Source of the DNA: Calorimonas adulescens
Lineage (GTDB): Bacteria; Bacillota; Thermoanaerobacteria; Thermoanaerobacterales; UBA4877
Direction: 5' to 3'
NCBI RefSeq assembly: GCF_008274215.1
Contig: NZ_VTPS01000018.1
Location: 1-55,417, forward strand
DNA: 55,417 nucleotides
Shown here: one piece after another, positions 22,693 through 36,134 of the stretch
Layout of the letters: each line of letters opens with the position of its first letter
Numbering within the stretch: the stretch's first letter is position 1
Translations under genes and position numbers: made by a program
Notes under the pieces: model-generated
The model's input: the letters and a program-made list of their open reading frames with translations, nothing else
What the model was told of the DNA's origin: nothing
The model's database searches: none

Positions 22693-22777
22693 CAAAACCT
22701 GGTATAATATCCTATTCTATTGACATAATTATATACAGTAATATATAATCAAATATATGGTTCGAGGAGGTTTTATA

Positions 22778-23047
22778 GTGGGAGAGACTAAGAGGATACT
22801 GGTAAGTCTTCCAGAGAGTCTTCTTGAGGAGGTGGATCTCCTGGCTTCTATGGAGAACAGGAACAGAAGCGAATTCATAAGGGAAGCAATGAAACTGTAT
22901 ATCAGCGAGAAAAAGAAGAGAGAGATCAGGGAGAGTATGAAGAAAGGATACATGGAGATGGCGGCTATTAACCTGGAAATGGCTGAGTTGGGATTTACAG
23001 CAGAAAACGAGTGCCTCAATTCCTATGAAAAAAGATTGGCCAAGTGA
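22778..23047 (+). CDS. endoAI: Antitoxin EndoAI, ribbon-helix-helix protein
   Basis: An 89-residue CopG-type ribbon-helix-helix protein. The DNA-binding strand and helices are seen in [16 protein letters not shown] and [16 protein letters not shown]; the acidic C-terminal part should wrap and block the toxin. The GTG at 22778 follows GAGGAGG by seven bases. Its end overlaps or touches the start of endoA, typical for this type II toxin-antitoxin pair, and it probably represses its own promoter. Confidence 0.88.
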
Positions 23048-23052
23048 ATACT

Positions 23053-23403
23053 ATGAATATAAAGCGTGGCGATGTCTACTACGCTGACCTCAGTCCCGTT
23101 ATAGGGTCGGAGCAAGGTGGCGTAAGACCTGTACTCATCATACAAAACGATATTGGTAATAAGTACAGTCCTACCATTATTGTTGCGGCTATCACATCTC
23201 AAATTAATAAAGCCAGACTCCCAACCCATGTGGAAATTGAAGGCACTGAATATGGTCTTGCGAAAGATTCTGTCATATTATTGGAACAGATAAGGACAAT
23301 AGATAAAAAGAGACTGAGGGAAAAGATTGCGCACTTTGACAACGATATAATGGAGAGTGTTAATAGGGCATTGGAGATAAGCCTGGGTCTGGTTGACTTT
23401 TAG
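23053..23403 (+). CDS. endoA: mRNA interferase EndoA (MazF family toxin)
   Basis: A sequence-specific RNA endonuclease that stops translation under stress. The opening [20 protein letters not shown], then [12 protein letters not shown] and IVAAITSQ (catalytic arginine and threonine regions) are typical of Bacillus EndoA, which cuts U^ACAU. The length of 116-119 residues is normal. The ATG at 23053 or the GTG at 23044, which overlaps the antitoxin stop, may be used; no separate strong ribosome site exists, so it should be coupled to endoAI. Confidence 0.92.
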
Positions 23404-23441: not shown

Positions 23442-23465
23442 ATGCGCATGAGAGAGGGGAGAAAT

Positions 23466-25472
23466 TTGAAGAGAAACGTAAGAGTAAGGCTCACAGTATT
23501 TATCTTACTGCTTTCCATAATACCGCTTGCCATACTGGGTGGGATGGCTTACTACATATCATACAACAGCCTTTATAAGGAAAATGTAGAGGAATCATAT
23601 GCAACTATAAATGGGATAAAAAATGTTCTTGAGACCAATTTTACAAACATAAAGGGTATGCTGCAAAATATCGCTGGAAATGCCGGGTCAATAAGATTTA
23701 TAGAGGCGTGCAATTCAGGGGATGAGGCCACAAAGGCAAGATATATTGAGGATATAGAGACTTCATTTAAACACTTTATACAGGACTCAGGCGGGGATAT
23801 TGTAAATATATCCCTTATTGCAAAAGATGGGAAGGTTGTAGCTGACTCCATTGGAGGGACAAGCATTGGTACAGATATGTCAAAGGCCAGTTACTTTAAG
23901 AACATAATGATGGGTTCAAACTATGACATTTCTTCGCCCACGACATATCGAAACGGTGGCCAGGTTATACCTATTATTACGATGTCTGTGCCTGTCAAGG
24001 ATGATAGCGGACTTACCATAGGCGCTACAATTATTACATACAGACTCGAATACTTCACACGATATTTGAAGGAGCATATTGAAAATAATGGGTTTATTTA
24101 TCTGATAGACAAAACAGGCACCATACTGTTTTACAATGATGAGACGCAGATTTTAAACAAGATGGACATGCAGTTATTTGACAAGATGCAGAATAAGACA
24201 GGAAATTTCAATGAAAATATCCTTGGGAAAGCCATGATGATCTTTTATGACACCGTACCGACCACGGGTTGGATTGTCGCTCGGGGGATACCTGAATCTG
24301 CCTTTACAGCGGCAGGCTCATATATCATGCATATAACAGTATATAGCGTTATAGCATTTGCCATACTCGCCTTTATCATTTCTTCCTTGATATCAAAGCA
24401 GTTTTCTGATGAGCTTACGATGATAATGAAGGCTATGGGACAAGCACAAAATGGCGACCTTACGGTCAGGGTTCAGACAAAAGCCAAGGATGAGTTTGGG
24501 AAATTAGCTGAGAGCTTTAACAACATGATGGAGAAGATTGGTGAGCTGGTGAAGAGAGTCATTGAGGCCTCGAACAGTGTCACGGAAATGTCTGAAGGCC
24601 TGGCCGCAGCGGTGGAGGAGGTGAGCGCCTCAGTACAGGAGATAGCATCACAGGCCGAGGGTATAGCATCCACATCGACCACCAATGCACAAAATCTCAA
24701 CCGTGCCAAGGCAACCACCGATGATCTGGCTTTGCGTGCCCAGGATGTTGTTGCCAGTACACAGCAGTCCCTGGATAGCGGGGTGCAGGGAGAGGAGAAG
24801 GCAAGAGTTGCCATAGGAGTTTTGGAAAACATCATAGACAAGGTCAATAACATTAAGGAGTCAGTTGATAAGACATCTACATCTATAAGAGAGCTGATGG
24901 GAGTGATGAGAAGGATTATAGATTTTACCAACACCATAGCTGATATAGCCGACCAGACAAACCTGCTGTCTCTAAATGCTGCTATAGAGGCAGCCAGGGC
25001 AGGTGAGGCAGGTAGAGGTTTTGCTGTTGTGGCTGATGAGATAAGGAAGCTGGCCGGAGAGTCCAGAGATGCCGCTGTAAGCATTGAGAGCCTCATAAAG
25101 GATGTAAGCAATATGGCGAAGGAAGTTGCAGAGAATATGGAAAATACAGTTGAGACTGTGGATAGTTCCGTGTCACAGGCTGATGCTGCAAGAGAAAGCA
25201 TTGGGGAGATAATTGGTGCCATAGAAGGCATCGGCGCCGCCATGTTCAATATAGACTCTGCGGTTCAAAGTCAGACAATCGCCATAGATGAACTTTCAGC
25301 CAGTATAGCTGGTGTGACGGAGGACATCAATGAAGAGGTGGACAATATAGCCAATATATCCGCGGCCATTGAGGAACAGTCTGCTACCATGGAGGAACTG
25401 GGTGCAACGGCTGAAGACCTGTCTGCTACAGCAGAAGGGCTTAAGGAAGTAATAGAAGGGTTTAAGGTATGA
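23466..25472 (+). CDS. Methyl-accepting chemotaxis protein with extracellular dCache-type domain
   Basis: A 668-residue chemoreceptor. TM1 (about 9-28) is followed by a double-Cache-like extracellular region of about 250 residues, TM2 (about 283-305), HAMP (ending near 365) and the signalling domain with its tip [21 protein letters not shown] split as seen around residues 500-520. The ligand is unknown; Cache domains often bind amino or organic acids. TTG at 23466 follows GAGAGGGGAG; ATGs at 23442 and 23448 lie before that site and are less likely. It is a single-gene unit. Confidence 0.88.
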
Positions 25473-25663
25473 CAGAATTATGAGACTAACAGTAGATGGT
25501 ATACAGCATGAAGAGCATCATTAAAAGGTAACAAAGATGCTTTTGGTGTGAGGCAAGCGGGACTGTAATGTTGGAAAGGGTGCCATATGAGTCGGTCAAA
25601 TTTGATTTTTTTCATAGACAGGAACTTGCTGCGGAAAATAAACATCATTGGGGAGGAGATAAA

Positions 25664-26122
25664 ATGAATAAAAAGATACTGATGCTGTCGGGAGTTGTAT
25701 TATCGTTGTTTTTAGTCATCGGAATTGCCTTTGCAGATACAAGTCCGGTACCCGGTTCCAAGGAAGATCCTGTGGTAACAAAAAGTTATGTAGATCAGCT
25801 GATGGACCAGCTCAAGACCTATGTTGACGATATGCTGTCAAAGGTTGGACATGGTGGTAGCGCTGAGCTGGAGGTTGTAAACCTGAACCCTGGAGAGATG
25901 ATAATATTAGAGGCAGGTACAGAGATAATTTTAAGGGCAGGGGAGGCAACCATATACTCACCGACTCCTAACGGCCTGTCTGATGTCACAGGGGGCAAGG
26001 ATATGGTAAGCGGTACGCCGATACCATTAAACCATTTGCTGATAACCCCAAGATCGGATGGCAGGGGGGTCGTGGCAAAGACAGCTGCAGTTCTCATGGT
26101 TAGGGGTCAATATTCAAAATAG
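25664..26122 (+). CDS. Secreted protein of unknown function; its 3' end is the attachment site of the next element
   Basis: A 152-residue exported protein. A signal peptide (KKILMLSGVVLSLFLVIGIAFA) precedes SPVPGSKEDPVVTKSYVD, a short coiled segment and a small beta domain (VVNLNPGEMIILEAGTEIIL). No family is recognised. GGGGAGGAG lies seven bases before the ATG; an upstream in-frame start (25568) lacks a ribosome site. The last codons and the terminator are duplicated at 31337-31385. Confidence 0.7.
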   Translation: MNKKILMLSGVVLSLFLVIGIAFADTSPVPGSKEDPVVTKSYVDQLMDQLKTYVDDMLSKVGHGGSAELEVVNLNPGEMIILEAGTEIILRAGEATIYSPTPNGLSDVTGGKDMVSGTPIPLNHLLITPRSDGRGVVAKTAAVLMVRGQYSK

Positions 26123-26156
26123 CCGCATTGATTGCGGTTATTTTTTTACTGATTTT
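26107..26156 (+). repeat. Left direct repeat (putative attL) with terminator
   Basis: Contains the last four codons and stop of the secreted-protein gene, a 10-bp stem around ATAGCCGCA/TGCGGTTAT, a T7 run and ACTGATTTT. The final 37 bases are identical to the right copy; the first 12 are also identical, with one extra A between. Confidence 0.8.
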
Positions 26157-26346
26157 CACTACCTTGATGGGCCTGCAATGCACATACTGGTAAAAACCTA
26201 TCCTCAAGCCAAAAGGCAATTTGCCGATGCTAATCCGATACTAATGTAGTCCTGTACTTTTGGATGCCCTACAGTGCCATGGGGAAATAGCATCAAAAGG
26301 CCGTATTATTTCTATATAAAAAGAAAGAGTTTTCCTATACATAAAT

Positions 26347-26370
26347 GTAACAATATGCCCATTTTGTTAC
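26347..26370 (+). repeat. Left 24-bp inverted repeat
   Basis: Reads GTAACAA, TATGCCCATT, TTGTTAC. It is the exact reverse complement of 27283-27306. Between attL and this repeat (26157-26346) I see no gene. Confidence 0.95.
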
Positions 26371-26483
26371 CTTAAAACATATATTTCGACACGATTTTAA
26401 TTTTTCCTGCATATTAATATATTTTAAAATAAAAATAAGAGTCTCAAACTGTTTAGATGGTTGCTTGGCACTATTATACTGTT

Positions 26484-27044
26484 TTAGAACTGCACCAGGG
26501 AGTATAGTTCATCCTTTTGATCCTGGTTTACGCCGATATAACGCAGGGTTATCCGTTGCGAACTGTGATTAAAAGTATCCATGATAAGCCCTATATTATA
26601 GCGGGACATTTTATAAGTCCAATACCCCCAGGTTTTGCGTAGGCTGTGAGTGCCAAAGTTTTCAATGCCTACAGCTTCGGCGGCTTCCCGTAGTACTCGG
26701 TAACTCTGAATCCTACCTATATGTCCACCTTTTTTGCTTGAGAAGAGGTAATCTTCCTGCGTTAAATTCCGTGTCTTTATGTAATTCTCTATCTCTTTTT
26801 TGAGAGACTCATTGATCTTAATTTTTTTCTCTTTGTCAGTTTTCTTTTCTTTCAGGATAAGATATTCACGGAACCGATTATTGGTTGTATAAATATCTTT
26901 GACTTTAATGGGTAAAATGTCGCTAATCCTTAAGCCTGTATTCAAGCCAAATTTAAACAATAGTGCATATTTTGGGTCTTTACCGTTTAAATAATAGTAC
27001 ATTTGTTTAATTTTTGCTTTATTACGAATAGGTTCTACGGTCAT
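26484..27044 (-). CDS. Short tyrosine recombinase/integrase
   Basis: A 186-residue protein holding only the catalytic domain. All active-site residues are visible: Arg in NTGLRISDIL, Lys in KEKKTDKEKK, His-x-x-Arg in THSLRKTWGY, His in FNHSSQ and the nucleophile Tyr in LRYIGV. No N-terminal core-binding domain is present. Such short enzymes of about 190 residues in Clostridia include invertases of phase-variable switches such as RecV of C. difficile. AAGGAGGGA lies seven bases before the ATG. It is flanked by the 24-bp inverted repeats and is the only recombinase inside the direct repeats, so it may act at either pair. Confidence 0.85.
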   Translation of the reverse strand: MTVEPIRNKAKIKQMYYYLNGKDPKYALLFKFGLNTGLRISDILPIKVKDIYTTNNRFREYLILKEKKTDKEKKIKINESLKKEIENYIKTRNLTQEDYLFSSKKGGHIGRIQSYRVLREAAEAVGIENFGTHSLRKTWGYWTYKMSRYNIGLIMDTFNHSSQRITLRYIGVNQDQKDELYSLVQF

Positions 27045-27282
27045 TAACCTGTCCCTCCTTGACCATAAAGTACTAATTATTAAAGTGTATTTAATAATTC
27101 CATAACGCTAATTAAATACATGAGTACTTCTATAATATATGGTAGCCGAGCGGCTGCTTATATATAAATTTATCATAAATATTATAAAAAAGATACATAG
27201 TTTTTTATACAAAAAATATACAAAGCGAATAATATTAATAAATAAATATGCTAAATGTAAGCCTTTTATCATTATTGTAAAT

Positions 27283-27306
27283 GTAACAAAATGGGCATAT
27301 TGTTAC
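27283..27306 (-). repeat. Right 24-bp inverted repeat
   Basis: Exact reverse complement of 26347-26370. It lies between the recombinase gene's upstream region and the chemoreceptor gene. The interval 27045-27282 is very AT-rich and holds TATAAT at 27131-27136 but no gene. Confidence 0.95.
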
Positions 27307-27380
27307 TTTAATAAGAAGAGGGTCGGGTTGTTAATTGCTATGGGTATTCAAGGATGAGGTTTATTGAAGGGAGAATAAAA

Positions 27381-29105
27381 ATGATGTTTAAAAATTTTAA
27401 AATTAAGTATAAGCTGTTGGCATCGTTTATGCTTATAGCTCTGCTCATGGGGGTAGTGGGGTACATAGGCATCAATGGTTTGGCAAAAGTAGACAGTAAT
27501 ACGAACGGTCTTTATAATAAAAATTACCAATCAATCTATATGCTGATGGATATGAAGGATAACCTATCGCAAATTCGTGCTGATGTGCTTAAGCTGCTCT
27601 ATGAAAGGGATAACCCAGAACAGAATAAAACTCTGGAGCAGGATATAAAAGCAAATGATGACGAGAATAGCAAATATATAAGCCAGTACGAAAAACTTCC
27701 AATGAATGCGGATGAAAAAAGGGAATGGACAATATTTAAAAATGATTATGTACAATATGAAAATTTGAAAAGCAAACTTATCAGTTTAATAGACGAAGGA
27801 AAATATGATGAAGCATTAGCTGTACATCCTCAATATTCTGATGTAAGGCAAAAAATGTCTGACAGTCTTGATAAGATAATCCAGTCTAATTTGGTTGATG
27901 GGGAAACAGCATATAACAACAGCATTTTTGTTTATGACAACTCAAGGCTTATAATGATAATATTAATGTGTTTAGGAGTTATTGTTTCTATTATACTCGG
28001 GTTTATCTTAAATAAGGATATAGCAGTACCCCTCATGCTTGCAGTAAATCATTTAAAGATTGTTTCAAATGGAGATTTTACAGAACATACACCTGAGAGA
28101 TATCTGAAAAGGAAAGATGAAATAGGTGACATGATAAACTCTATTGAAGCAATGCAGGACAATTTAACCAATCTAATTAAAGATATTATGGACAGCTCAC
28201 AAAACTTAAGTGCATTAAGCGAAGAACTTTCTTCATCTGTGGAAGAAATATCAGCAAGGCTTGAAAGCATAAGCAGTTCTACATCAGAGATAGCAGGCGA
28301 TGTTCAGGATACCAGTTCTTCGGCAGAAGAAATAACTGCATCAGTAGAAGAAGTAACAGCAAGCATCTCACAGCTTTCAGAGAGGGCGATTGAAGGAAGT
28401 AATAATGCAGGGAACATAAAAGAGAGGGCACTAAATGTTCAGGAGGAGGGCAAAAAATCTCTAAACAGTACGCAACAAATGTACAAAGAAAAACAGAAGG
28501 CTATTTTGCAAGCAATAGAAGACGGCAAGGTGGTAGAGAAAATAAAGATAATGGCAGATACTATTGCAAGCATTGCCTCACAAACCAACCTTCTTGCACT
28601 AAATGCGGCTATAGAAGCAGCAAGGGCCGGAGAGCATGGAAAGGGCTTTGCAGTAGTGGCGGAAGAAGTGAGGAAACTTGCTGAACAGTCTACACAATCA
28701 GTAGCGGAAATACAAACTACCGTGAAAATGGTTGAGGGTGCGTTTGACAACTTATCAAACTATAGTAGCCAAATACTTAAATTCATAGAAGAAAATATAG
28801 AACCGCACTTTAACTCCTTTGTAGAAATGGGAACCCAATATTATGAAGATGCTGATTTTTTAAGCAGGATGTCGGAGGAATTGGCTTCCATGACGGAAGA
28901 AATTAACGCAGCTATAGAGCAGGTAAGTGAGGCCGTACAGGCTATGGCAAGCACATCTCAAAAAGTATCGGAAAATACAAATGAGATAGAAAGCAGCATA
29001 AGCGATTCCTCCCAAGGAGTTGAACAGGTGGCAAAGACAGCACAGGAACAGGCAGAGCTTGCACAAAAGCTTAATGAAATGATTATGAAATTTAAAATAA
29101 GTTGA
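27381..29105 (+). CDS. Methyl-accepting chemotaxis protein with four-helix-bundle sensor
   Basis: A 574-residue chemoreceptor. TM1 (about 10-32), a helical 4HB_MCP-type extracellular domain of about 150 residues, TM2 (about 188-210), HAMP, and the signalling domain with hairpin tip [20 protein letters not shown]. The ligand is unknown. GAAGGGAG lies eight bases before the ATG at 27381; a second ATG follows directly. It is the first gene after the putative invertible segment, and 45 bp separate it from the GGDEF/HD-GYP gene, so the two are probably cotranscribed. Confidence 0.88.
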
Positions 29106-29150
29106 AGATTTCAAAATGCGTTCTTAGGGAGTAATAAGGGAGACTAGAGA

Positions 29151-31301
29151 ATGGTTAATACAAAAACTAGACTGAATTTAAAACTGTCTATGATAATATC
29201 TACAACCGTTATAGCTTTTGCGGTTAGTTATATTTGCCTTTCCAATAGGGTTTACATAATATATCAGAATTTATTTTATATCCCGATTTTATTGTCATGT
29301 TTTTGGTATGGTAAGAAAGGGTTTATATATTCTGGAGCTATAGCTGCAACATATTTTTTGTTTTCCCTAAAATATAGTCCTGAAACCCTTTGGGATGAAC
29401 TCGTAAGATTGTTTATATTTATTGCCATTGCGTTGTTAACATATAAATTAACTGACAGGATAAAAGTTCAGCAATCTAAAATTACCAATTTGAATAAAAT
29501 GCTCAAAAATGATATTGAAAAGTTCAAGAAAGTTGAAATGCTGTCCCATTTAGGAAGCTATGAAGTGGACCTAAAAACGGGCAAGACCATATGGTCAGAT
29601 GGGATGTTCAGGATATTTGGCTATGAGCCGGGTAGTTTTGAACCTACAAAGGAGAAGAGGATAGAATTTACCTATCCTGATGATAAAGAGCTTGTAAGGA
29701 AAAGTATAGATAAGGCAATTAATGAAAAATGCAGTTTTACAATTGAAAACCGCATAGTAAGGTCAGATGGGAGCATCCGCTGGATATTATCAACGGGTTA
29801 TGTTGAATCCAATGAATATGATGAAGCTGAAAAGTTCATAGGTTCTTTGCTTGATATAACTGAAAGGAAGTTATTAGAGAAATCCTTGGAAGAAGAAAAG
29901 GAAAAGTTAAGGATAACAATAACATCTATAGGTGATGGCGTCATTTCCACAGATATAAATGGCAGAATAACAATACTTAATAAGGTGGCGGAAAAATTAA
30001 CAGGCTGGAAACAGGAAGAGGCTTTAGGCAAACCTATAGAAGAAGTGTTTAATATAATAAATGAAAATACAAGAGTTAAATGTGAAAATCCGATACAAAG
30101 GGTCGTTGAAAGAGGAACGATTATCGGTCTTGCAAACCACACGGCGTTAATATCAAAGGACGGGACGGAAAGGTCTATAGCTGACAGTGCAGCACCGATT
30201 AAGGATAGTGACGGCAATGTTCAAGGTGTAATACTGGTATTTAGAGATATTACGGAAGAAAAACGCAAGCAGGATGAGATTTATTATATGAGTTACTATG
30301 ACTCTTTGACAGGACTTTATAATAGAAGGTTCTTTGAAGAAGAAATTAAGAGGATAGATACTGAAAAGAACCTTCCGATCTCTATTATCATGGGAGATGT
30401 TAATGGTCTAAAACTTACCAACGATGCTTTTGGCCATAGTGTGGGCGATAGACTCTTAAGGAAAGCAGCAGAGGCGATTAAAAGTGCATGCAGAGCAGAT
30501 GATATTGTAGCACGGTGGGGCGGGGATGAATTTATTATTTTGCTTTCCAAAACTAAGAAAGAAGAAGCAGAAGCAATGGTAAAGAGAATTAAAAATATAT
30601 GTTCTGAGATGAAGATTGACTCTATTGATGTTTCAATTTCTTTTGGATACGATACAAAGGAAAATGTAGATGAAGACATATTTAAAATATTAAAAAGTGC
30701 AGAAGATTATATGTATAACCATAAAGTCGTTGAAAGTAATAGCATGAGGGGAAATATAATAAATACAATTCTAAATACACTCCATGAAAAGAATCCAAGG
30801 GAGGAGAAACATTCAAAAAGAGTAAGTGAGTTATGCCAAAGGATAGGGGCAGCGATGAGATTGCCTGAAACAGAAATAAATAAACTTAAAGTTAGCGGAT
30901 TGCTCCACGATATTGGTAAAATTGCCATAGAAGATAAGGTCCTCAATAAACCAGGATGTCTTACAGACCAGGAATGGAATGAGATAAAAAGGCATCCAGA
31001 TATCGGGTATCGGATATTAAGTTCATCATCAGAAATGATGGAGATAGCTCAATATGTTTTATTCCATCATGAAAGGTTTGACGGGAGTGGGTATCCACGG
31101 GGATTAAAACAAGAAGAGATTCCTCTTTTATCAAGAATAATAGCTGTTGCGGATTCTTATGATGCAATGACAAACGCAAGGACATATAAGAAGACACTGG
31201 ATAAGGATACGGCCATTGGAGAGCTTATTCGCAATAAGGGAACTCAATTTGACCCCAATGTGGTTGACGTTTTCATAGAAAAAGTATTGAATAACCCATA
31301 A
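29151..31301 (+). CDS. Membrane PAS-PAS-GGDEF-HD-GYP protein
   Basis: A 716-residue c-di-GMP enzyme. Three to four N-terminal hydrophobic segments (about 10-110), a short coiled coil, two PAS domains (about 125-245 and 255-370), GGDEF (DSLTGLYNRRFFEEE, RWGGDEFIILL) and HD-GYP (LLHDIGKIAIEDK, HHERFDGSGYPRGLK). Both enzyme motifs are intact, so it could make and break down c-di-GMP. No RxxD inhibitory site is obvious. AAGGGAG precedes the ATG by nine bases. It is the last gene inside the direct repeats, with the repeat's terminator directly behind it. Confidence 0.88.
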   Translation: MVNTKTRLNLKLSMIISTTVIAFAVSYICLSNRVYIIYQNLFYIPILLSCFWYGKKGFIYSGAIAATYFLFSLKYSPETLWDELVRLFIFIAIALLTYKLTDRIKVQQSKITNLNKMLKNDIEKFKKVEMLSHLGSYEVDLKTGKTIWSDGMFRIFGYEPGSFEPTKEKRIEFTYPDDKELVRKSIDKAINEKCSFTIENRIVRSDGSIRWILSTGYVESNEYDEAEKFIGSLLDITERKLLEKSLEEEKEKLRITITSIGDGVISTDINGRITILNKVAEKLTGWKQEEALGKPIEEVFNIINENTRVKCENPIQRVVERGTIIGLANHTALISKDGTERSIADSAAPIKDSDGNVQGVILVFRDITEEKRKQDEIYYMSYYDSLTGLYNRRFFEEEIKRIDTEKNLPISIIMGDVNGLKLTNDAFGHSVGDRLLRKAAEAIKSACRADDIVARWGGDEFIILLSKTKKEEAEAMVKRIKNICSEMKIDSIDVSISFGYDTKENVDEDIFKILKSAEDYMYNHKVVESNSMRGNIINTILNTLHEKNPREEKHSKRVSELCQRIGAAMRLPETEINKLKVSGLLHDIGKIAIEDKVLNKPGCLTDQEWNEIKRHPDIGYRILSSSSEMMEIAQYVLFHHERFDGSGYPRGLKQEEIPLLSRIIAVADSYDAMTNARTYKKTLDKDTAIGELIRNKGTQFDPNVVDVFIEKVLNNP

Positions 31302-31336
31302 TTATCTGAATAAATGGAATTATAAGTAATTTACAA

Positions 31337-31385
31337 TCAATATTCAAATAGCCGCATTGATTGCGGTTATTTTTTTACTGATTTT
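31337..31385 (+). repeat. Right direct repeat (putative attR) with terminator
   Basis: Same sequence as 26107-26156 with one A missing. It serves as the terminator of the PAS-GGDEF-HD-GYP gene. Immediately behind it lies the promoter region of the DUF5693 gene, which would have followed the secreted-protein gene before insertion. Confidence 0.8.
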
Positions 31386-31447
31386 TAACGATTTAATCTG
31401 CAAAGTAATGGTATAATATACTTAGCTTAAAACAAGGAGATGGACAG

Positions 31448-33433
31448 ATGAGAAACAGGATATTTATAGGAATAATTATATTGTCATGTGTTGTTGCTCT
31501 TTATGCAGGCTATGGAAGATATACCGTAGAGAGTGGGTATAAAAATGTTGAGATTACCGGTGACCTGGATGCTCTTAAGGCCATGGCCGATTATGCCGGT
31601 ATGGATACGGAAGAGCTCATAAGTAAGTACAAGGCTGAGGGCATGAATTCCATAGCTGTAAACGAGGTCAGGCTGAAAGTGCTTCAGAGCGAAGGTAAGC
31701 TCTCATATATGACCCGTACAGATGCTGCTGCCTTAGGTATAACATCGGGTAATCTTGCCTTGAAGAGAATTTTGGCATCTGCTGAGGGCTTTTTGCCTGA
31801 TTCTACTGTAATACTCACAGGTGACAGGAGCGTTTATGAGTTTCTGGCTAAAAACCTTACAAAGAGGTATGATGGTGTGGTATATAGTACAGATGGGGAA
31901 TATTATGCCATTGCTGTTAATAAACCCATCAAGAATTTGGAGACTGACGGCCTGGGGTTTGACACTAGGGATTTTGAGCTGGTTAAGGCCTCAGGCCTTA
32001 TACCTGTAGCAAGAATAGAAAACTATGAGGGGTTAAGGGACAGGGATATAGATGAGTACATCAATATGCTTAAAAGCTATGGTATAGATCAGGTTGTATT
32101 TGGCGGGGATGAGGTGCTGGGAAATGAGGAGAAAATTGACTATGCTGGCAAAAGGTTTAAAGAGGAGGGTATAGCCTTTGGCATAATAGAATTACCTGTT
32201 GACAAGGACTACGAGACTCAGGAGGGAATGAGCAGGTTTGCCAAACGGGCCGGTTATAACGCATTTAAGCTTTTCAGTCTATCTGAAAAGGAAATGGCGG
32301 CCTACGACAAGATTGAAATGGCGGACAAGTGGTATAGGGCAGTGATAGACAGGAATGTGAGGATGATATATGTAAGGCCTGAGATAAGGGCAGATAAACC
32401 AGGGGTATACAACGTGAATTTTTACGGTGATACCATAGCTGTTTTTAAGGGATACATGGATGATATAGGAGAGAAGATAGGCAAGATAGTGCCGTTTAAA
32501 GAATATCACGTGCCGAGAATCCTGCAGGTTGTAATAGGTCTTGGGGTGGTTGCAGGCAGCGTGATGCTTTTAGATACCCTCATACCATTAAGCGATATGA
32601 TGGCGCATTTGCTTATGGTACTGGGGACTCTTATAACCATTGGCACCCTGTACAGCAGGTTTTTTGACCTGGGGGTCAAGGCCCTTGCATTGGCGTCTTC
32701 GGTTGTATTTCCCTCCTTAGCCATGGCTTATATAATGAGGGTTTGTGAGAAAAAACAGGGGTCGTTCATCTCATATACCGTGGTCAATTTTGTCAAGGCC
32801 TCCTTGATTTCAGCGGTTGGTGCCTTGTATATAGCCTCTATAATGGCTGACAGCAAATATCTCTTAAAGCTGGACTTTTTTAGGGGGGTCAAGGTATCCT
32901 TTGTGGCTCCGGTGGTATACTTCCTGGTGCTGTATTTTGTACGATATTTCAGGAAGGACTTGAACTTGAGGGATAAGATCGCATATATATTGAACCTGAA
33001 TGTGAAGGTCTGGTATGTGGTGATAGCTGTTGTGGCGGCAGTGGTTGCGTTTATTTACATTTCCAGGACTGGCAATAATCCTGCAGTTGGTGTGAGCGAT
33101 CTGGAGCTACAGTTCCGTTCTTTGCTTGAGCATACGCTGGTGGCCAGGCCAAGGGAGAAGGAATTCCTTGTTGGCTATCCTGCGCTCATACTTATGCTCG
33201 GTTTTGTGTATCAAGGGTTCAAAAAAGAATGGAGTTTTGTCTGGGGTATCTTTGCCAGTATAGGACAGCTGTCCCTGGTAAATACATTCAGCCATTTAAG
33301 GGCACCACTTGGCATTTCTATAGAAAGAACAATCTACGGCATGGTCCTTGGCATAATTATCGGTTTTGTCTATTTTGTGGTTGCAAGATATATCCTTGGA
33401 TACCTTAAGAGGAAATGGGGTGTTGGGGTTTGA
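31448..33433 (+). CDS. DUF5693 family membrane protein
   Basis: A 661-residue protein with an N-terminal signal anchor, an extracytoplasmic domain of about 330 residues and then eight or more membrane helices (from about residue 360: RILQVVIGLGVVAGSVMLL). DUF5693 proteins are regularly found just upstream of csaB and a TagA-type glycosyltransferase in Clostridia and are presumed to work in surface polymer export or assembly. CAAGGAGATG precedes the ATG. Its stop overlaps the csaB start (TTGA). Confidence 0.8.
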   Translation: MRNRIFIGIIILSCVVALYAGYGRYTVESGYKNVEITGDLDALKAMADYAGMDTEELISKYKAEGMNSIAVNEVRLKVLQSEGKLSYMTRTDAAALGITSGNLALKRILASAEGFLPDSTVILTGDRSVYEFLAKNLTKRYDGVVYSTDGEYYAIAVNKPIKNLETDGLGFDTRDFELVKASGLIPVARIENYEGLRDRDIDEYINMLKSYGIDQVVFGGDEVLGNEEKIDYAGKRFKEEGIAFGIIELPVDKDYETQEGMSRFAKRAGYNAFKLFSLSEKEMAAYDKIEMADKWYRAVIDRNVRMIYVRPEIRADKPGVYNVNFYGDTIAVFKGYMDDIGEKIGKIVPFKEYHVPRILQVVIGLGVVAGSVMLLDTLIPLSDMMAHLLMVLGTLITIGTLYSRFFDLGVKALALASSVVFPSLAMAYIMRVCEKKQGSFISYTVVNFVKASLISAVGALYIASIMADSKYLLKLDFFRGVKVSFVAPVVYFLVLYFVRYFRKDLNLRDKIAYILNLNVKVWYVVIAVVAAVVAFIYISRTGNNPAVGVSDLELQFRSLLEHTLVARPREKEFLVGYPALILMLGFVYQGFKKEWSFVWGIFASIGQLSLVNTFSHLRAPLGISIERTIYGMVLGIIIGFVYFVVARYILGYLKRKWGVGV

Positions 33434-34527
33434 AAAAGGTGCTGATATCCGGCTACTATGGTTTTGATAACCTTGGGGATGAGGCTGTCCTGCTGTCCAT
33501 AATAAAGACCTTGAGATCTCTGGATAAGAGTCTGGAGATAACAGTCCTTTCAGCCAGGCCGGATGTGACAGCAGCGAGGTATGGTGTAAAGGCAATAAAC
33601 CGTACTGATTTTTTGGCTGTGTTGAGGTCTATATTTAGATGTGATATGTTAATAAGTGGTGGGGGCAGTCTTTTTCAGGATATTACCAGCAGAACAAGCC
33701 TATTTTACTATCTGTCCGTAGTGTTTCTTGGCATACTGCTCAGGAAAAAGGTAATGGTTTACGGACAGGGGATGGGCCCGCTAATAGATAATATGGATAA
33801 GAAAATCACTTCATTTGTCCTTAGAAGGGTTGACATGATTACACTGAGGGATAGCTCCTCACTGGGTTTGTTAAATGAGCTGGGCGTAAAGAGAAATGTG
33901 CATGTAACTGCAGACCCTGTCTTTACTTTGGCCCCTTCTCCTGATGCCAGGATAAGGGAAATACTGGATGCCGAGGGTATCCACGGCAATTACATATTAA
34001 TAGCACCAAGAAGTTGGTATGATAATGAACTTTTTAGGATAGAAATGGCTAAGGCTGCAGATGAGATATATTTAAAGACGGGTGTGGGGGTCGTATACTG
34101 TCCTTTTCATGAGGATGACATGGAAGAATGCCGCAGCATAGCAGGTTTTATGAAGTGCCCGTATCATATCCTCTCTAAGGTGTACAGCCCGGAGGATATG
34201 ATTGGCATTGTCTCTTTTTCTGATATGGTAATAGGTGTGAGGCTACACTCCCTGATATTTGGTGCCCTGGCAGGCCGGGCCATAGCGGGAATATCCTATG
34301 ACCCCAAGATAAATGGTTTTTTAAAGGATATAGGTGTCGAGCCTGTGGGAACGATGAAGACTGTCACTGCAGAGCAGATAGTAAGATATGTAGAGTCCAT
34401 ATGGGATGGGAGGGAAAGAATGGGTAGGGAGATAAAGGCGAGAGTGGAGATATTAAAGCAGAAGGCATATGAGAATGGAGAACTGGCTTTATCACTTATT
34501 AACGGAGGAAGGTATGGAAAAAGTTGA
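33430..34527 (+). CDS. csaB: Polysaccharide pyruvyl transferase CsaB
   Basis: Adds pyruvate ketals to a secondary cell-wall polymer; the pyruvylated polymer anchors SLH-domain proteins such as the GH18 protein at 39619. Motifs: KKVLISGYYGFDNLGDEAVL, GGGSLFQD, YGQGMGPL and GVRLHSLIFG, all typical. Start TTG at 33430 overlaps the DUF5693 stop; the GGGGTG at 33417-33422 is seven bases away. It overlaps the TagA gene start by 14 bases. Confidence 0.9.
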   Translation: MKKVLISGYYGFDNLGDEAVLLSIIKTLRSLDKSLEITVLSARPDVTAARYGVKAINRTDFLAVLRSIFRCDMLISGGGSLFQDITSRTSLFYYLSVVFLGILLRKKVMVYGQGMGPLIDNMDKKITSFVLRRVDMITLRDSSSLGLLNELGVKRNVHVTADPVFTLAPSPDARIREILDAEGIHGNYILIAPRSWYDNELFRIEMAKAADEIYLKTGVGVVYCPFHEDDMEECRSIAGFMKCPYHILSKVYSPEDMIGIVSFSDMVIGVRLHSLIFGALAGRAIAGISYDPKINGFLKDIGVEPVGTMKTVTAEQIVRYVESIWDGRERMGREIKARVEILKQKAYENGELALSLINGGRYGKS

Positions 34528-35260
34528 GATACTAAATATCAGGATAGACAATGTAACCATGGATGAAGCCTACAGAAATATACTGGTTTTTTTGAAAGAG
34601 GATAGGCGCCATATAGTATATACCCCCAATGCAGAGATTATTATGGCGGCACAGAGGGATAGGAGCCTTGTTGATGTTTTAAACTTTTCAGACCTGAATG
34701 TGCCTGACGGCATAGGCGTGGTGATGGCATCGAGGCTGTATGGCTGCAGGATAAAAGAGAGGGTGGCAGGCTTTGACCTCATGAATTACATACTTAAAAA
34801 TGCACCGGCTGAAGGCTACAGTGTGTACTTCTTGGGCGGCAAACCGGGTGTAGCGGAAAAGGCTGCAAAAAAAGCAGTGTCCATGTATGGGGAGATAAAT
34901 ATCGCAGGTTTCCATGATGGTTACTTTGACAGGATGGAGGAAAAAAGAGTAATAGAAGAAATAAACAGCAGGGGTGTGGACTTTCTTTTTGTGGGGTTGG
35001 GCGCACCAAAACAGGAAAGGTGGATATATGAGCATCCAGAGATAAAGGCCAAGGTGATAATGGGTGTTGGGGGCAGTTTTGATGTCCTGGCCGGTGTGGT
35101 AAAGAGGGCACCGGAGATTTACCAAAAATTTGGGCTGGAGTGGCTCTACAGGCTTATCCAGGAACCGTGGAGGTACAGGAGGATGATGAGCCTGCCTCTT
35201 TTTGTGCTCACGGTAATTAAGGATAGGATTGGAGGGGTGCTATGGTCAGGAAAGAAATAG
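34514..35260 (+). CDS. tagA: WecG/TagA/CpsF family glycosyltransferase
   Basis: Transfers N-acetylmannosamine to undecaprenyl-PP-GlcNAc in wall polymer synthesis. A 248-residue protein with NAEIIMAAQRD, VPDGIGVVMASRL, GGKPGVAEKAA and VGLGAPKQERWI, the family's key motifs; D and Q in these are catalytic. The ATG at 34514 directly follows GGAGGAAGG. It overlaps csaB at its start and yitT at its end, so the four genes from 31448 to 36078 form one operon. Confidence 0.88.
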   Translation: MEKVEILNIRIDNVTMDEAYRNILVFLKEDRRHIVYTPNAEIIMAAQRDRSLVDVLNFSDLNVPDGIGVVMASRLYGCRIKERVAGFDLMNYILKNAPAEGYSVYFLGGKPGVAEKAAKKAVSMYGEINIAGFHDGYFDRMEEKRVIEEINSRGVDFLFVGLGAPKQERWIYEHPEIKAKVIMGVGGSFDVLAGVVKRAPEIYQKFGLEWLYRLIQEPWRYRRMMSLPLFVLTVIKDRIGGVLWSGKK

Positions 35261-36078
35261 TTGATTTTACCGGTATAACGGTTGGGGTGGTGCTTATGAC
35301 TGTCTCACTGAATATGTTCCTGACCCCAAATGACATTGCCCCGGGCGGGATAAGCGGCCTGGCCATAATCGTTCATAGCTTTACCGGATGGCCTGTAGGT
35401 ATGCTGACTTTAGCGTTTAACATACCTCTGTTCATAATCTCCATACTGCTCCTTGGAGCAAAATTTGGAATAAAGACATTTTATGCCACATTTCTTCTGG
35501 GAGCTACCATTGACCTTATGTCTTTTCTGCCCGTACTCACCCACGACTACCTTCTGGCTGGTGTATATGGGGGAATACTCATGGGTATAGGACTTGGGAT
35601 GGTATTTAAATATAATGCCACCACAGGAGGGACAGACCTGGCCGCAGCTATACTTAAGAGATTTTTCCCTCAGGTGTCTATCGGTATGCTGCTTCTTATA
35701 ATAGACGCAGTAATTATTGGCCTGGCCGGTTTTGTGTTCTCAGCAGAACATGCCCTCTATGCACTCATTGCTGATGCCATAGCCATAAGGGTCATAGACA
35801 TAATACAGGAAGGAGCCAATGATAACAGGGCGGCCTATGTGATATCAGATTTAAGTGATGATATAGAAGCCGAAATTCTCACAAAACTGGGGAGAGGGGT
35901 CACATCCTTTCCAGGCCGTGGCGGGTATACGGGCAAGGAGAGAAAGGTGCTCTTTTGTGTAATATCCAAAAATGAAATAACACAGTTTAAGGAAATTGTG
36001 AAGGGTGTAGACCCCGATGCTTTTGTGGTGATATTCCAGGCCCATGAAATAATGGGAGAAGGATTTGAGGAAATTTAA
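35242..36078 (+). CDS. YitT family membrane protein
   Basis: A 278-residue protein with about five membrane helices (DUF161; MFLTPNDIAPGGISGLAII, GMVFKYNATTGGTDLAAAI) and a soluble C-terminal DUF2179 domain (TSFPGRGGYTGKERKVL). The function of the family is unproven; transport has been suggested. The start overlaps the TagA gene by 18 bases, with GGAGGGG ahead of the ATG. Confidence 0.88.
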   Translation: MVRKEIVDFTGITVGVVLMTVSLNMFLTPNDIAPGGISGLAIIVHSFTGWPVGMLTLAFNIPLFIISILLLGAKFGIKTFYATFLLGATIDLMSFLPVLTHDYLLAGVYGGILMGIGLGMVFKYNATTGGTDLAAAILKRFFPQVSIGMLLLIIDAVIIGLAGFVFSAEHALYALIADAIAIRVIDIIQEGANDNRAAYVISDLSDDIEAEILTKLGRGVTSFPGRGGYTGKERKVLFCVISKNEITQFKEIVKGVDPDAFVVIFQAHEIMGEGFEEI

Positions 36079-36134
36079 ATTTAAGGTATAATAGATGTGG
36101 AGATATAGCCTGAGCAAACGGAAGGAGGATATAC

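Follow-up and report, generated by a model that had tools for sequence, protein, structure and literature searches.

The window, a 55,417-nt stretch of Calorimonas adulescens DNA (GCF_008274215.1, contig NZ_VTPS01000018.1, positions 1-55,417, forward strand), contains a short tyrosine recombinase gene between two inverted repeats, next to genes for a chemoreceptor (MCP) and a GGDEF/HD-GYP protein that lie 45 bp apart on the plus strand (Table 1). A sequence-only reading of this DNA had described perfect 24-bp inverted repeats, a short recombinase with all catalytic residues, and a right-hand repeat 75 bp before the chemoreceptor gene, with the GGDEF/HD-GYP gene behind it. Each of these was recovered: the repeats are perfect, the recombinase combines a PF00589 match with the full R-K-H-R-H-Y set, the distance holds for the likely MCP start at 27381, and Pfam identifies both target genes as described. 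It proposed 7-bp arms and a 10-bp core for the site; across the family described below the site is better written as TGTAACA-N12-TGTTACA.

Table 1. Features of the switch, its target operon and the surrounding cassette in the window
Feature	Coordinates	Strand	Basis or remark
50-bp direct repeat, left copy, terminator of upstream gene	26107-26156	.	single copy at G001 empty site
Acquired 5.2-kb cassette: switch, MCP and GGDEF/HD-GYP genes	26157-31336	.	absent from G001
Inverted repeat, B end (recombinase 3' side)	26347-26370	-	GTAACAATATGCCCATTTTGTTAC
Tyrosine recombinase, 186 aa, intact, catalytic domain only; probable invertase	26484-27044	-	PF00589, E = 3e-23
Region between recombinase start and A-end repeat, 238 bp	27045-27282	.	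position only
Inverted repeat, A end (toward target operon)	27283-27306	+	perfect reverse complement of 26347-26370
Leader from repeat to MCP start, 74 bp, with ribosome-binding site	27307-27380	+	no riboswitch
MCP, 4HB-HAMP-MCPsignal; ORF opens at 27354, likely start 27381	27354-29105	+	Pfam
PAS-PAS-GGDEF-HD-GYP protein, both catalytic motifs in translation	29151-31301	+	Pfam, translation
50-bp direct repeat, right copy	31337-31386	.	bounds cassette

The segment between the outer ends of the repeats (26347-27306) measures 0.96 kb, and the similarity of the repeats extends to 33 nt (26341-26373 and 27280-27312, 91% match). Allowing up to three mismatches, the repeat occurs twice in the window (0 expected), and the whole 2.59-Mb genome contains the flanking pair only; a RecV-type invertase acting in trans was rejected on this ground. 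The region between the recombinase start and the A end must hold the recombinase promoter and is predicted also to hold an outward promoter for the operon; the short leader leaves little space for a promoter outside the repeat. A sigma-70-type scan of the window returned 8 sites compared to 6.3 by chance, and neither it nor a sigma-D scan gave a clear internal promoter; no c-di-GMP riboswitch was found in the window. At 27192-27198 there is a half-site-like motif (GATACAT/GTTACAT) with equivalents in relatives 40-150 bp before the recombinase start; its position in the likely recombinase promoter suggests possible autoregulation, with the enzyme binding there. Elsewhere in the window, a ribbon-helix-helix gene followed by a MazF-like gene (22757-23403), a probable toxin-antitoxin pair, lies upstream of another MCP gene (23442-25472).

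A family of related elements in Clostridia

We catalogued about 46 related elements in Clostridia, with recombinases at least 59% identical (range 59-95%) and units of about 0.7-1.0 kb; in a phylum-wide draw, a strong recombinase match was present in about 15 of 398 genomes. Their hosts include Acetivibrio, Thermoanaerobacterium, Tissierella, Caloranaerobacter, Tepidibacter, Lutispora, Fonticella, Anaerobacterium and Herbinix. The 46 recombinases form a single clade in the tree, set against sister recombinases that are about 45% identical, and R39, K68, H133, R136, H160 and Y169 are invariant in all of them. FimB/FimE-type NCBIfam models scored far below their cut-offs (NF007371, 40.7 versus 222 bits; NF007370, 27.6 versus 221 bits). 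A Xer-type dimer resolution recombinase was likewise rejected, as the XerD NCBIfam model reached 45.7 versus 329.6 bits and only the catalytic part matched. Among plasmids and phages no recombinase match reached 60% identity, and viral contigs contained no close relative. Enterococcus and Bacillus plasmids and Streptococcus prophages commonly carry recombinases about 45% identical, from which the invertase lineage possibly derives.

Inverted TGTAACA-N12-TGTTACA ends enclose the recombinase in nearly every intact case. The spacer is identical at both ends in 32 of the 37 measurable elements, as expected if recombination depends on inverted crossover regions of matching sequence, while only 8 of 666 between-element pairs have a common spacer and none is palindromic (Fisher p of about 1e-42, a rough value given that the elements are related). 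Of 45 elements, 5 have a terminator after the recombinase, compared with 0.3 by shuffling; the window has none at this place.

Several copies are incomplete. Two genomes of a Thermoanaerobacterium-like genus carry broken or degenerate copies (L101 and L104), one of which (L104) has also lost its riboswitch-GGDEF/HD-GYP target while chemotaxis genes remain. In Clostridium ultunense (L035:3084-5527), one intact recombinase and two fragmentary ones form a tandem array interrupted by a run of N.

Orientation of the element in relatives

Comparison of orientation between related genomes, a check proposed with the sequence-only reading, uncovered flipped alleles. At a FapA locus, G006 and G019 have collinear flanks that are 96% identical, and the element between them is 99% identical and in opposite orientation, with the breaks falling at the repeats. 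In G370, two contigs (C18 and C25) end at the same base of the B-end repeat and are 100% identical in their interior, but the A end is joined to an HD-GYP flank in one and to an oxidoreductase flank in the other. The congener G408 has a single element between the same HD-GYP and oxidoreductase flanks. These assemblies are most simply read as a mixture of both orientations in the sequenced G370 culture; a pair of separate element copies in G370 would be a less economical account.

Contig ends elsewhere fall at the same kind of position. Two contigs of Caloranaerobacter azorensis terminate precisely at the 26-bp repeat, with the element on one and the beginning of the target GGDEF-EAL gene on the other. 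In G217 the A-end repeat opens one contig, which shares a 99-bp overlap with another. Such breaks are compatible with mixed orientations in both genomes but are not proof of them. At three further loci (L059, L061 and L111) the target lies on the other end of the element. The claim that the element is invertible draws strong support from matched spacers, flipped alleles and a both-orientation assembly in relatives.

Genes on the target side

The link to chemotaxis and c-di-GMP that had been proposed for this locus recurs family-wide. By Pfam, each of the 39 target-side neighbours tabulated is a chemotaxis, c-di-GMP or FapA gene, with the mild circularity that the target side of a few flipped elements was assigned after their genes were seen; in the rest the target adjoins the recombinase start. 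Targets comprise MCPs; CheY, CheW or CheA as leading genes of chemotaxis operons; proteins of the GGDEF-EAL, EAL, HD-GYP and GGDEF-HD-GYP types; and FapA, the DUF342-type flagellar assembly protein A. At L035 and L054 a short unassigned ORF comes first and the MCP gene next, and at L038, L040 and L059 a receptor and a c-di-GMP enzyme are in one operon, as in the window. Opposite-side genes vary widely: among the first 25 Pfam families listed, one of them CheB, none occurs in more than 2 of 40. Neighbours of the sister recombinases (about 45% identical) displayed no motility bias, and most of these recombinases had no comparable inverted repeats; the comparison indicates that the association with chemotaxis and c-di-GMP genes is specific to this recombinase clade.

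About a quarter of the elements, some 12 loci, have a c-di-GMP-I riboswitch directly outside the A end (L034, weak; L040, L054, L060, L062, L094/L095/L103, L100, L107 and L113, with the same motif visible at L150). Such leaders imply transcription into the target from the element side. In G004 (L094:4136-6121), an IS110-family transposase is located between the switch and its riboswitch-GGDEF/HD-GYP target.

A sigma-D scan of 47 elements yielded outward sites that stand out in about 7, some of them outside the repeat, and no general rule. This result, together with the sigma-70 scan, leaves room for a segment that inverts but acts on the recombinase or on the opposite neighbour instead of the sensory operon, and at L109 and L110, where a sigma-D-like promoter lies outside the repeat, target transcription is possibly independent of orientation. 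However, a target side uniform in function beside a diverse opposite side is best explained by selection on the target, and the riboswitch leaders begin near the repeat. We regard an effect confined to the recombinase or the opposite neighbour as very unlikely, and control of the chemoreceptor/c-di-GMP operon by inversion as likely on this comparative evidence.

Acquisition and movement

Comparison with G001, a relative of the same family, placed the window's switch and operon within a 5.2-kb cassette. In G001 the genes that flank the cassette are immediate neighbours, and window positions 25635-26156 and 31337-36093 (80-83% identical) match adjacent G001 DNA, overlapping by exactly the 50-bp direct repeat, which does not contain the recombinase's own site. 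The cassette has a GC content of 35% versus 44-45% in the flanking genes and looks, from its composition and boundaries, like a recent arrival.

This history bears on whether the window's copy is a relic, a formerly active switch now frozen in this genome. Only a single isolate represents the locus, and other copies in the family are broken (L101, L104 and the L035 fragments); yet here the recombinase is intact, the repeats are perfect over 24 bp, the recombinase is 95% identical to the G426 copy, and the cassette appears recently acquired. A frozen switch is an unlikely description of this copy.

The element itself has also changed neighbours. G426, which is probably C. thermocellum (ATCC 27405), has only the switch in common with the window, with an identical 24-bp repeat and DNA similarity that runs from repeat to repeat only, and its target is a cheW-cheA operon. 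Two of the genomes analysed probably correspond to C. thermocellum ATCC 27405 and to D. dehalogenans. The Acetivibrio mesophilus copy likewise resembles the window over little more than the interval between the repeats. Recombinases 92-95% identical occur in different orders, the recombinase tree shows about 18-20 changes of target class, and one MAG contains four copies, each with its own spacer.

These features would suit an element that is mainly a small mobile element, with repeats acting as transposon ends and inversion or promoter effects incidental. Judged as an insertion sequence, it has boundaries at the repeats between distant genomes, but the only clean empty site found is that of the 5.2-kb cassette with its 50-bp duplication, in which switch and operon moved as a single unit. 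The Acetivibrio relatives compared, whose flanking gene order is too different, yielded no clean site that lacks just the element, and G008, which lacks the recombinase, was rejected as an empty site because its contig ends at the element. Moreover, most genomes carry a single copy, insertion only before motility and c-di-GMP genes with the same end always outward would not be expected of a transposon, and identical inverted spacers favour inversion over excision. On this evidence a primarily transposing element seems improbable, and an inversion switch that also travels is the reading we retain.

Discussion

We consider it quite probable that 26347-27306 is a self-contained inversion switch, presumably sequenced in its ON orientation, that would make the adjacent operon phase-variable. 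It is very likely that the enclosed enzyme drives inversion, given the matched spacers and the orientations seen in relatives, and from these we infer that the window's own copy inverts as well. In the proposed mechanism, the recombinase would bind both inverted TGTAACA-N12-TGTTACA sites, and strand exchange within the identical spacers would reverse the 0.96-kb segment, recombinase gene included. As sequenced, the MCP and GGDEF/HD-GYP operon lies on the side of the A end, next to which the recombinase gene starts, and a putative outward promoter at this end would make this the ON orientation, an assignment suggested by the geometry and by the predominance of elements whose A end points to the target. 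In the reverse orientation the operon would be OFF or would receive read-through alone, and a clonal population would split into cells that differ in chemosensing and c-di-GMP turnover.

We also lean towards a broader proposal, in which a lineage of portable, self-inverting promoter cassettes, recruited at least about 18 times, makes clostridial chemotaxis and c-di-GMP genes phase-variable and is often combined with a c-di-GMP riboswitch, the transcript then being gated jointly by a heritable coin toss and a second messenger. Phase variation is classically linked to surface structures; this recombinase lineage is tied, in every readable case, to signal input and c-di-GMP turnover, and it spans many families of mostly non-pathogenic, often thermophilic Clostridia. 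If the proposal is true, bet-hedging on sensing and motility would be a general strategy in Clostridia, and the switch would be a self-contained unit that is easily moved and tested. The family also offers candidate recombinases for clostridial inversion sites that lack an assigned enzyme, and for work with anaerobes and thermophiles it supplies a compact natural means of heritable switching.

DNA inversion by tyrosine recombinases has long been known, as in fim and in RecV of C. difficile. Inversion signatures in clostridia were detected by paired-end mapping (Sekulovic et al., 2018; PMC5903667), and signalling and chemotaxis genes are given there as the most frequent clostridial neighbours of the sites, which include positions near chemotaxis genes in Anaerotignum propionicum and C. 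thermocellum and near an HD-domain gene in Desulfitobacterium dehalogenans. The sections consulted report no enclosed recombinase, family or riboswitch link for the clostridial sites, some of which may belong to the present family. In C. difficile, phase variation of pdcB has been demonstrated, and at pdcB/pdcC the expression of a c-di-GMP phosphodiesterase gene depends on which way round an invertible promoter segment lies; that segment, in contrast to the one described here, measures 174 bp, has 19-bp imperfect repeats and no gene inside, and depends on a recombinase that is not borne by the switch (PMC9286219). The flg, cmr and cwpV switches of C. difficile also combine a tyrosine recombinase, RecV, with inverted repeats and motility or signalling genes, and c-di-GMP additionally regulates flgB and cmrRST. 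RecV differs in being a single recombinase that acts in trans on several loci (PMC5386303, PMC5903667).

The sequence-only reading had called a switch of this kind unfamiliar, which requires a qualification: inversion next to such genes is on record in the mapped signatures (PMC5903667) and the pdcB/pdcC switches (PMC9286219). We found no description of the self-encoded family in the open-access literature, and an earlier account elsewhere is possible. What appears to be new is a coherent family, a single recombinase lineage that is portable, is encoded within its own switch and is dedicated to chemotaxis and c-di-GMP genes.

Comparable, too, are the fim switches, whose FimB/FimE enzymes are short tyrosine invertases related to the NCBIfam 'tyrosine-type DNA invertase', and an element of Providencia stuartii, an 844-bp segment of similar size with an enclosed recombinase; both differ in their fimbrial targets and in belonging to Gammaproteobacteria (PMC5903667). 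The short tyrosine recombinases of Bacillota plasmids and phages (about 45% identical), the sister group in the tree, resemble the family in catalytic architecture and length but differ in their neighbours and, mostly, in lacking comparable inverted repeats. One sister recombinase (L120, 45% identical) has its own 53-bp inverted repeats of unrelated sequence and possibly represents a separate family of self-encoded switches.
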